IMG/VR virus record: IMGVR_UViG_3300043449_001310
Coordinates: 1 to 26,268 of that record
Source of the DNA: a virus
DNA: 26,268 bases
Reading direction: 5' to 3' (one strand)
The notes under the pieces were generated by a model. It ran no database searches. It saw only the letters and a program-made list of their open reading frames with translations, and was not told the origin of the DNA. This document shows positions 17,738 to 24,477 of the stretch, one piece after another. Made by a program: the position numbers and the translations under genes. Each line of letters starts with the position of its first letter. Within the stretch, counting starts at the first letter, position 1.

Positions 17738-17757
17738 GGCTGGCCTCCCTTCTTTGC
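17731..17757 (-). repeat. Coupling cassette copy 1
   Basis: This copy encodes the C-terminal KKGGQP of the coiled-coil gene at 17734-18144 and, in the overlapping frame, the Shine-Dalgarno (GGGAGG) plus ATGAGC start of the metallophosphoesterase. It nearly matches the copies at 18138-18165 and 24450-24477. Confidence 0.85.
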
Positions 17758-18144: not shown

Positions 18145-18165
18145 GGCTGGCCTCCCTTCTTGGCG
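18138..18165 (-). repeat. Coupling cassette copy 2
   Basis: Identical over 28 bases to the copy at 24450-24477. It encodes KKGGQP then stop in one frame and the ribosome-binding site plus GTGAGC start in the other. Confidence 0.85.
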
Positions 18166-22739: not shown

Positions 22740-23186
22740 CTAGCGGCGGACGAGATTGCCGACGCGGATGGCGTACGATGCCCGGGCGGGCGGGGCGTTC
22801 GACAGGCGGAACCCGATGCTCGCGGCGCCGGTGAAGCCGAGGTTCCAGCAGAGGGCCAGACACTCGGGGGAAGGGTTAGGTATGCCTCGGGCGGTCAAAC
22901 GGCCTCTGAGGGCCCGCAGATAGGCAAGGGCGACCATGTCCTGGGCGAGCGGGGAACGCCATTGCCAGCGGGGGAAGGTCGGTTGGCCTTCGCGGAGAAG
23001 CTGCGCGTTGCCGTCGGCCCATGCCTCGGGGTGCATTTGGTAGAGCCCGAGGGCCGCCCCGCCGTCGCCACGCTGGAGGCGCTCGCCGCCCTCGACCTGA
23101 CCGATCGCGTGGAGGATGCGGGCGTCGGACTGGGCGTTGGCAGCGCAACCGAGCAGGAGCAGGGCGACGAGGGGGACGGGGCTCAT
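22740..23186 (-). CDS. Secreted lysozyme-like / lytic transglycosylase protein
   Basis: This 148-residue protein begins MSPVPLVALLLLGCAANAQSD, a short signal peptide with a near-lipobox LLGC. The mature part contains ILHAIGQVEGGERL with a probable catalytic Glu at 32, GAALGLYQMHPEAW (43-56), the G-L-Y-Q-M motif of SLT-type lysozymes, and LALCWNLGFTG (110-120). This is the lysozyme-like superfamily fold. It may act as an endolysin that is exported by the host Sec system, or as a virion-free murein enzyme during infection. ATGA overlap with the methyltransferase fixes the start; the extension upstream is shadow of that gene. An export-dependent endolysin is an inference from the signal sequence. 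Confidence 0.78.
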   Translation of the reverse strand: MSPVPLVALLLLGCAANAQSDARILHAIGQVEGGERLQRGDGGAALGLYQMHPEAWADGNAQLLREGQPTFPRWQWRSPLAQDMVALAYLRALRGRLTARGIPNPSPECLALCWNLGFTGAASIGFRLSNAPPARASYAIRVGNLVRR

Positions 23187-24172
23187 TGTTGGGAAGCGAT
23201 GCGGGTGCCAATCCATCGAACGACCGGAACGGCAAAGGAGTTTCCCGCGCATTTATATTGCGGGCCGTCGGGGGCGGTAGGCTTGCCCTTCCAAGGGATG
23301 TTCGTCCAGTTGTCAGGGAATCCTTGGAGGCGGAGGCATTCGTTAGGGGTAAGTCGGCGGACGGCTACAGAAGTTGCCACCGCGTGGCAATGGGCAGCTT
23401 GAAGCGTAAATTGTGGGTCGCCGTTGTTTCCGATTCCAATCGTCATGCGCGCATCGTTTATAGGGTCTGGCCTTCCGCCAAGCGTTAGGGTGTTAATTGG
23501 ATATGCTTGTTCAGCGCCTCCTCCAGCATCGGGGGCAACGCCTTGCTTCTTTTTTCCGCCCGCCGCAAGATGCCGCTGCAGGCCCTCGCGGAGAGATAGA
23601 ACCTCGGCGGCAGAGGCCCAGCCTCCAGCACCTCGGCGAGCAACGACAAAGACCCGCCGGCGGCGTTGGGGCACGGCTGACCAGCCGCGTCGATGTGGGT
23701 GCAACCTACACTCTCCGACGTGTTGAGCGTCCAAGACTCGGTAGGCCCACCCATACCCGAGTTGCCCCAGGGCGTGGAGGAAGGTTCCGAAGGTGCGCCC
23801 TCCGTCCACCGACAGGAGACCCGGCACGTTTTCATAAACGACCCACTCGGGTCGCAGTCGGTCAACCAAGCCGAGATAGGTGAGGGTGAGGTTTCCGCGT
23901 GGATCGGCAAGTCCTCGCCGGAGGCCGGAAAAGCTGAATGCCTGGCATGGAGGGCCGCCGATAATGATGTCCACATCTCCAGTTGAGAAGGGCCATTGTT
24001 TGTATTTTGTGAGGTCGCCATAGTTGGGGGTGTTGGGAAAGCGGTGGGCCAGCACGGCGGAAGCGAATGGGTCAATCTCGCAGAAGCCGACGGCTTTCCA
24101 GCCAAGCGGCTCCCACGCGATGGACGCGGCCTCCATGCCAGAGCAGACGGATAGGAAGCGCAGTTGCTTCAC
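23183..24172 (-). CDS. dcm-like: C5-cytosine DNA methyltransferase
   Basis: This 329-residue enzyme has the canonical motifs: I (FLSVCSGMEA, 6-15), IV with the catalytic Cys (GGPPCQAFS, Cys76), VI (ENV, 114-116), VIII (QRRRRVF, 169-175), IX (RRLTPNECLRLQGFPDNW, 272-289) and X (YKCAGNSFAVPVVRWIG, 306-322). It transfers methyl groups from S-adenosylmethionine to cytosine C5 in duplex DNA. In phages this usually protects the genome from host restriction. Between DAQHVG and VPQRRRR there is a 13-residue stretch (ECRLHPHRRGWSA) that I do not expect in the family. The GTG start overlaps the previous stop (GTGA). The gene also holds a second long ORF in another frame. Confidence 0.95.
   Translation of the reverse strand: MKQLRFLSVCSGMEAASIAWEPLGWKAVGFCEIDPFASAVLAHRFPNTPNYGDLTKYKQWPFSTGDVDIIIGGPPCQAFSFSGLRRGLADPRGNLTLTYLGLVDRLRPEWVVYENVPGLLSVDGGRTFGTFLHALGQLGYGWAYRVLDAQHVGECRLHPHRRGWSAVPQRRRRVFVVARRGAGGWASAAEVLSLREGLQRHLAAGGKKKQGVAPDAGGGAEQAYPINTLTLGGRPDPINDARMTIGIGNNGDPQFTLQAAHCHAVATSVAVRRLTPNECLRLQGFPDNWTNIPWKGKPTAPDGPQYKCAGNSFAVPVVRWIGTRIASQQ
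23485..24105 (-). CDS. Alternate-frame ORF inside the methyltransferase gene (possible overprinted protein)
   Basis: On the same strand but in a different frame, an ATG-initiated ORF of 206 codons lies wholly within the methyltransferase. Most of it is Ser/Thr/Pro-rich, but the C-terminal part reads LAEVLEAGPLPPRFYLS then LSARACSGILRRAEKR and a closing S-K-A-L-P-P-M-L-E-E-A-L. I recall this arrangement (S-L-x-x-x-L-E then L-S-x-x-A-C-x-G-I-L-R-R-A-x-K-R-G-K-x-L-P) from phage proteins annotated beside cytosine methyltransferases. By hand count over 60 codons (about 23521-23700), GC at the third position is 51/60 in this frame against 35/60 in the methyltransferase frame. Dual coding is inferred; the ORF may still be a by-product of conserved methyltransferase residues. 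Confidence 0.35.
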   Translation of the reverse strand: MAGKPSASARLTHSLPPCWPTAFPTPPTMATSQNTNNGPSQLEMWTSLSAALHARHSAFPASGEDLPIHAETSPSPISAWLTDCDPSGSFMKTCRVSCRWTEGAPSEPSSTPWGNSGMGGPTESWTLNTSESVGCTHIDAAGQPCPNAAGGSLSLLAEVLEAGPLPPRFYLSARACSGILRRAEKRSKALPPMLEEALNKHIQLTP

Positions 24173-24456: not shown

Positions 24457-24477
24457 GGCTGGCCTCCCTTCTTGGCG
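24450..24477 (-). repeat. Coupling cassette copy 3
   Basis: Identical over 28 bases to 18138-18165 although about 6.3 kb away. It encodes the KKGGQP tail and stop in one frame and the Shine-Dalgarno plus GTGAGC start in the overlapping frame. Confidence 0.85.

Follow-up and report, generated by a model that had tools for sequence, protein, structure and literature searches.

Evolutionary evidence for a conserved gene overprinted on phage-type C5-cytosine DNA methyltransferases

Introduction

Does the long open frame hidden within a viral cytosine methyltransferase gene encode a second protein, or does it merely follow the conservation of the enzyme? Overprinted viral genes, nested on the same strand as an older gene, are a known kind (PMC8227390), and a preliminary description of the DNA analysed here proposed genuine dual coding at such a locus. 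The window, that is, the whole stretch of DNA that was analysed, is a 26,268-base virus record (IMG/VR record IMGVR_UViG_3300043449_001310, positions 1 to 26,268). We conclude that its hidden ORF is very probably a copy of a conserved nested gene, here called ALT, overprinted in the +1 frame on phage-type C5 methyltransferases. Conservation, selection, and the internal start signals computed for the family establish dual coding at the level of evolution, and we infer from the sequences that ALT is translated.

Results

The hidden frame of the window lies within a methyltransferase gene that retains all of its motifs. The C5-cytosine DNA methyltransferase (MTase) that serves as the host gene is encoded on the minus strand at 23183-24172 (329 aa, GTG start) and matches Pfam PF00145 (E = 1.4e-49) and phrog_116 (E = 1.5e-84). 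A string search placed motifs I (24122-24151), IV (23942-23959), VI (23819-23833), VIII (23648-23668), IX (23315-23359), and X (23225-23245), all on the minus strand and in one common frame. Inside this gene, the +1 frame is uninterrupted over 23485-24168 on the minus strand (227 codons and the stop codon TAA). Synonymous shuffles of the MTase had a mean open run of 120 +/- 31 codons, and 18 of 2000 were as long as the window's. The preliminary description had identified a 206-codon, ATG-initiated ORF at 23485-24105; it does lie on the minus strand inside the MTase, in the +1 frame, and its translation does end in ...FYLSARACSGILRRAEKRSKALPPMLEEALNKHIQLTP, but its first codon is TTG and not ATG. 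The nested gene that we propose occupies 23485-24021 on the minus strand (178 aa), with an ATG at 24019-24021 (MATSQNTNNG...). An alternative, shorter form (23485-23976, minus strand, 163 aa) would begin with the ATG at 23974-23976 (MWTSLSAAL...), which is near the usual start position of the family, where starts immediately precede the MTase sequence DLLVGGTPCQ.

The conserved C-terminal domain of ALT, here termed the tail, is encoded at 23488-23652 on the minus strand (SLSLLAEVLEAGPLPPRFYLSARACSGILRRAEKRSKALPPMLEEALNKHIQLTP). It scored 74.9 bits against a window-free profile, compared to a shuffle maximum of 36.9, and is basic (pI 9.6), while the ALT body is acidic. GC content by codon position over the tail was 0.59/0.49/0.80 in the hidden frame and 0.80/0.59/0.49 in the MTase frame; the other genes of the window have about 0.63/0.45/0.88, and the tail therefore fits the hidden frame and not the MTase frame. 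A hand count of GC3 in the preliminary description (51/60 hidden, 35/60 MTase) was close to our recount of the last 60 codons, which gave 49/60 for the hidden frame and 31/60 for the MTase frame. The substitutions counted between the window and its three nearest relatives were too few to be informative on their own.

Two other features of the window were observed. The part of the MTase gene 3' of the hidden gene (23183-23485, minus strand) has a GC3 of 0.59, versus 0.82 at the MTase N-terminus and 0.86-0.95 in other window genes, and this low value suggests that the 3' part was acquired separately. An exact 14-base repeat, AAGGGAGGCCAGCC, is present at 17738-17751, 18145-18158, and 24457-24470 (minus strand), with a chance expectation of 0. 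Its copies lie at three gene junctions, at which small proteins ending in KKGGQP are followed by the next ORF (AVSEP/AVSDV).

The tail has a common pattern across phage C5 MTases, LSxKACxGILRRAxKRGKxLPxxLxxAL, read in the +1 frame. With the hidden C-terminal 93 aa as the tblastn query, 131 phage records were matched (best E = 1e-16), mostly under annotated MTases. Ten of the first 12 loci opened had the match in the +1 frame of the annotated MTase, namely those of Pseudanabaena phage Pan4, Roseobacter phage CRP-821, Vibrio phage K461, Akkermansia phage Chantilly, P1 (dmt), CobraSix, Caulobacter phage BL94, Pseudomonas phage D14E, a Monoglobales phage, and mycobacteriophage Hannaconda. Of the other two loci, that of the P1-like phage 813R1 has a broken MTase frame and its hidden ORF is annotated as a gene, with the same internal ATG start, and that of FP_Toutatis (L011) has its MTase N-terminus joined to the ALT tail via an indel. 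Loci with the ALT tail were then compiled from phages and from IMG/VR and GTDB genomes, the latter two searched with a profile and represented by the best 80 loci of each scan. Among the matches listed, 179 of 181 were in the +1 frame of an MTase ORF and the other two were frame-disturbed MTases; none of the 181 (phages, IMG/VR, and GTDB) was a stand-alone tail. Stand-alone copies were likewise absent among the matches listed for 131 + 164 phage and 528 plasmid records, which were methylases, hypothetical, or unannotated, and all five "hypothetical" cases later opened were MTases with ALT in the +1 frame. The proteins with this motif that the preliminary description places next to MTases were found to sit within the MTase genes, in the +1 frame.

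Frames were disturbed at several loci. In L031, L154, and L011 one frame contains both the MTase N-terminus and the ALT tail, and in L031 the MTase C-terminus as well. In two Omega-type mycobacteriophages, Hannaconda (L013) and Phoebus (L375), the MTase C-terminal motifs are in another frame than the annotated N-terminal part. The displacement is identical in both phages, the ALT tail is intact, and either a shared break or a frameshift would account for it.

In order that loci not be chosen by the hidden frame, a further MTase collection used as its query just the N-terminal 53 residues, encoded upstream of the hidden gene (best 80 per scan, sufficiently long ORFs kept). This MTase-first sample comprised two classes, proteobacterial-type (A2) and Firmicutes-type (A3). 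The tail was present in the +1 frame of 149/149 MTases, with median scores of 84 bits (A2) and 76 bits (A3); the +2 frame reached a maximum of 2.3 bits, shuffles averaged about 1 bit, and every locus scored above all 50 of its own synonymous shuffles. The motif is widely co-encoded with MTases, as the preliminary description had supposed, and its proposal of genuine dual coding is strongly supported by homologues that were selected by the MTase N-terminus and keep the hidden frame far above codon-shuffled nulls.

ALT has a narrower distribution than its host gene, being found only in phage/prophage-type MTases and not in the other C5 MTases sampled. Among 30 C5-MTase loci fetched from 15 whole genomes, ALT was present at 12/12 loci with phage-type MTases (scoring at least 225 bits with the phage MTase profile) and at 0/18 loci with other C5 MTases (at most 140 bits). 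ALT-bearing MTases largely form one clade: 54 tail-bearing sequences grouped together in a 71-sequence MTase tree (support 0.976), with the Omega-phage MTases and the L360 branch just outside this 54-tip clade. The hosts include Pseudomonadota, Bacillota, Actinomycetota, Verrucomicrobiota, Cyanobacteria, and others, and the carriers are temperate phages, lytic phages, and prophages, including the laboratory phage P1 (dmt).

A second variant of the nested gene was found in class II MTases. The sister-branch MTase L360 lacks the tail and was first scored as ALT-negative, yet it carries a +1 ORF whose body is related (SWKTxQxSxLxP...WPRSGMM) and whose C-terminus differs (...NPxxxEWLMGFPxGWTxLxPxET). 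Overprinted +1 ORFs with the C-terminus WPTPTASD...NPTWVEWLMGFPxGWTDLxPxET were observed in the class II phage C5 MTases L360, L385-L463, and L464-L543, and the class II host MTases read VADGxPxRVDRLxALGNAVVPQI. The variant was sampled as at least 79 viral loci by the hidden frame and as 74 MTases by the MTase N-terminus, with a class II N-terminal query that extended slightly into the start of the hidden body. The open run was about 220 versus 100 codons, the variant tail scored above every shuffle in 74/74 MTases, and omega_ALT was 0.45-0.72 versus 1.05 upstream. Start signals were weaker in this variant (38% vs 17%).

Conservation over the tail follows the hidden frame. Across 174 unique tail loci, residue entropy was 1.13 bits per residue in the hidden frame versus 1.88 in the MTase frame. 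By ALT codon position, entropy was 0.77/0.68/1.28 bits; that is, the MTase wobble base (ALT position 2, 0.68) is more conserved than MTase position 1 (ALT position 3, 1.28). Leucine, proline, alanine, and arginine positions of ALT outside the search pattern (e.g., L39, P40, L43, A46, and L47) are invariant or nearly so, and the MTase residue varies. Wobble constraint relative to synonymous shuffles was approximately at baseline before ALT, rose at the ALT N-terminus, was extreme in the tail, and was back to zero past the ALT stop. Hidden-frame stops were frequent on both sides of ALT and essentially absent inside it.

Selection was compared between the two frames along the gene. Omega values, which like the other statistics were computed with custom scripts, come from pairwise counts by class of change and are descriptive, since the sequences are related, as in all counts here, and the pairs non-independent; they were 0.24 (A2) and 0.15 (A3) for the hidden frame of the tail (omega_ALT) and 0.82 in both classes for its MTase frame (omega_MT). 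In the ALT body, omega_ALT was 0.84 (A2) and 0.49 (A3) and omega_MT 0.16 and 0.20, and control regions of the same genes had omega_ALT of 0.61-1.01 and omega_MT of 0.05-0.09. In the tail the hidden frame is thus under strong purifying selection and the MTase frame is nearly neutral, while the ALT body is weakly constrained in the window's class (omega_ALT 0.84). This pattern of tail, body, and control regions indicates that, along the gene, the hidden frame takes over the burden from the MTase frame. The preliminary description had named synonymous-site constraint, hidden-frame nonsynonymous change, and alternate-frame stops as checks on dual coding. All three turned out as dual coding predicts: MTase-synonymous sites are constrained exactly across the hidden gene, omega in the tail is 0.15-0.24, and no stops occur between the hidden start and the end of the tail.

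These data bear on whether the hidden frame could be a by-product, conserved merely because the MTase protein and its codon usage are conserved, with no second protein. Upstream of the tail the strong conservation of the MTase motifs (omega_MT 0.16-0.20) accounts in part for the hidden frame, and the long open frame of the window, taken alone, has about a 1% chance. However, synonymous shuffles that preserve the MTase protein destroy the motif, the tail is constrained in the hidden frame and close to neutral in the MTase frame, internal start signals are more frequent than in the shuffled null, and recombinants of P1-like phages alter MTase residues and retain the hidden motif. The pure by-product reading is refuted by the codon shuffles, the entropy pattern, and omega, and we give it almost no credence.

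The P1-like dmt genes (L006 and L376-L384) have exchanged target-recognition regions, with breakpoints within the hidden tail. In these recombinants the new DNA encodes unrelated MTase residues (APRRKKKEIASA, APSRGEGKETTRY, and APSRGEGKEVAGN), and the hidden pattern RxRKLPxxLxxxL or RRKSLPPLLQMAL survives each swap. Because P1-like phages swap the downstream region with breaks in this very stretch, conserved DNA there could aid recombination, and the conserved unit might then be DNA or RNA, either a recombination site for target-recognition swaps or an RNA structure. The conservation, however, shows a period of three bases in phase with the hidden frame, its third positions being free (1.28 vs 0.68-0.77 bits). 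It is also seen in the amino acid sequence between distant hosts, and it goes together with start signals and the absence of stops. The three-base period leads us to reject conservation of a DNA or RNA element only, a reading that we regard as highly improbable.

Overprinting of a protein-coding gene is also indicated by internal start signals, defined as an in-frame start codon preceded by a Shine-Dalgarno match of at least 4 nt. Such signals were present in 86% of A2 genes versus 24% of shuffled sequences, and in 97% of A3 genes versus 28%. The typical form is AAGGAG-N7-ATG or TTG in A2, over the MTase codons K-E-W, and GAGGTG-N8-ATG in A3, over the codons for T-N-G; phage P1 ALT, located in dmt at about 66728-67201 of AF234172.1, has GGAG-N7-ATG. 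In the family, constraint sets in near the internal ribosome-binding site and start codon and ends at the hidden stop codon. The window clade differs in that its MTase reads GDLT instead of GDMT, and the usual upstream hidden stop is lost as a result. An ATG with MATS/METS is kept in the window's close relatives L174-L178 and L180. No convincing Shine-Dalgarno sequence was present at the candidate ALT starts of the window copy, so that its putative start (24019-24021 or 23974-23976) is ambiguous.

The start signals also bear on a programmed +1 frameshift near motif VIII, which would produce a truncated MTase carrying the ALT tail. The +1 relation of the frames is compatible with such an event, and some annotated proteins fuse the MTase N-terminus and the tail in one frame (FP_Toutatis L011 and L154), but these joined forms are few and resemble single indels. 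Constraint and the absence of stops reach about 80-120 codons upstream of the tail, to the internal Shine-Dalgarno sequence and start codon, and no conserved slip site was found at the start of the tail. Expression by frameshifting only is rejected on the internal start signals and on constraint that does not begin at a shift site, and we consider it improbable.

ALT proteins are typically 130-190 aa long. AF2 gave low confidence over the first two thirds of ALT and a C-terminal helical hairpin with pLDDT 90-97; the hairpin was predicted alike for a canonical member and for the window copy, whose tail core had pLDDT 94-97. Only the last ~45 residues, the helical hairpin, are thus confidently predicted, and the N-terminal part is probably disordered. 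ALT had no significant match to Pfam, NCBIfam, PADLOC, or PDB sequences. A Foldseek search of the AF2 model against the PDB returned non-significant short helical matches, the best being sigma-A domain 2 (E = 3.5), and the best match in BFVD was a protein named methyltransferase (E = 3.9e-3). Hidden-frame proteins are now and then annotated as hypothetical or as methyltransferase. Two PHROG families match the hidden-frame proteins themselves, phrog_16143 the tail variant (E down to 6.7e-10) and phrog_1008 the second variant (E down to 2.5e-16), yet both are labelled DNA methyltransferase, a label that presumably stems from position, and no mention of nested coding was found for them in the open-access literature.

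Discussion

Taken as a nested gene, ALT would be expressed by ribosomes that start on the MTase mRNA at the internal Shine-Dalgarno sequence and start codon, just before the motif-IV segment; in the Firmicutes-type class, internal initiation would occur before motif VI. The predicted product is a protein of 130-190 aa that would terminate within the MTase. Its N-terminal part would be encoded by DNA common to conserved MTase motifs, and its basic C-terminal helical hairpin of ~45 residues overlies the tolerant linker that joins motif VIII to the target-recognition domain, where the sequence is dictated by ALT and not by the MTase. Such a small protein may consist of a disordered arm and a basic helical hairpin.

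What this protein does is a matter of tentative ranking. Our leading guess, which we hold as possible, is a joint role with the MTase, in which ALT would bind the enzyme as a partner or regulate its activity or DNA targeting, because ALT is in essentially all members of the clade and no lone copy was among the matches listed. This linkage, on which a joint role would be based, cannot decide the matter, since a gene overprinted on another is hardly free to move away from it and would be linked to it in any case. Next, and somewhat unlikely in our estimate, ALT may have a function of its own apart from the MTase, such as counter-defence or host takeover, with the MTase gene as its carrier. Overprinted viral genes often target hosts (PMC8227390), the C-terminal domains differ between the two MTase classes, and ALT is carried by temperate and lytic phages and prophages alike. 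A separate function is not favoured by the lack of a stand-alone or relocated ALT among the matches listed, nor by the lack of a match in PADLOC, Pfam, NCBIfam, or PDB.

A more far-reaching proposal, which we consider rather unlikely, is that the overprinting of ALT on phage C5 MTases is ancient and preceded the divergence of their two large classes, that the nested gene later received a different C-terminal domain in each, and that it encodes an obligatory partner of these enzymes. If true, much of the phage-borne 5-methylcytosine machinery would be two proteins in one stretch of DNA.

ALT has the features of a nested gene: an ORF inside an older gene, selection beyond that on the host gene, family start signals, and a narrower distribution. 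It resembles described overprinted viral genes (PMC8227390) in its position, as a different-frame coding sequence entirely within an older gene, in its asymmetric constraint, and in a predicted product that is unusual, partly disordered, and without homologues. Unlike most studied cases, which are in small viruses, ALT is in an enzyme gene of dsDNA phages, its hosts range over proteobacteria, firmicutes, actinobacteria, cyanobacteria, and Akkermansia, and it lies within many annotated MTase genes while itself unannotated.

Two other kinds of methylase locus are comparable. The beta chain of EcoHK31I is reportedly encoded in another frame, in work attributed to Lee, Kam and Shaw in 1995. M.EcoHK31I and M.AquI are two-polypeptide C5 MTases whose motifs are divided between the chains (PMC3404938), and they resemble the present case in that a C5 MTase locus yields a second, smaller polypeptide, which for ALT is predicted. 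The small chain of EcoHK31I has motif IX, whereas ALT has no MTase motif and the MTase frame here retains all motifs, including IX and X. The two-polypeptide type was rejected for ALT, which has no Pfam match; the MTase frame itself contains motifs I, IV, VI, VIII, IX, and X. The ShiLan domain, a hidden out-of-frame HNH endonuclease in actinophage methylase insertions with sporadic homing (PMC11855218), is likewise an out-of-frame ORF within a phage DNA methylase gene. ALT differs from ShiLan in not being an insertion, in lacking an HNH match, and in its occurrence in every sampled member of the clade. A hidden HNH homing element was rejected on the lack of an endonuclease match in Pfam, PHROG, and PADLOC and on an occurrence (149/149 MTases) that is not sporadic.

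No prior description of ALT was found in the open-access literature. ALT would add a conserved, unannotated protein family, mislabelled or omitted by automated pipelines, within the methylase genes of phages and prophages of many bacterial phyla, including P1. Synonymous recoding or truncation of such MTases would silently alter or delete the second protein. Among same-strand nested genes of dsDNA phages, ALT would be one of the most widespread, and together with its MTase it would be a clean natural case of two proteins encoded by one sequence, with the burden shifting between frames along the gene.
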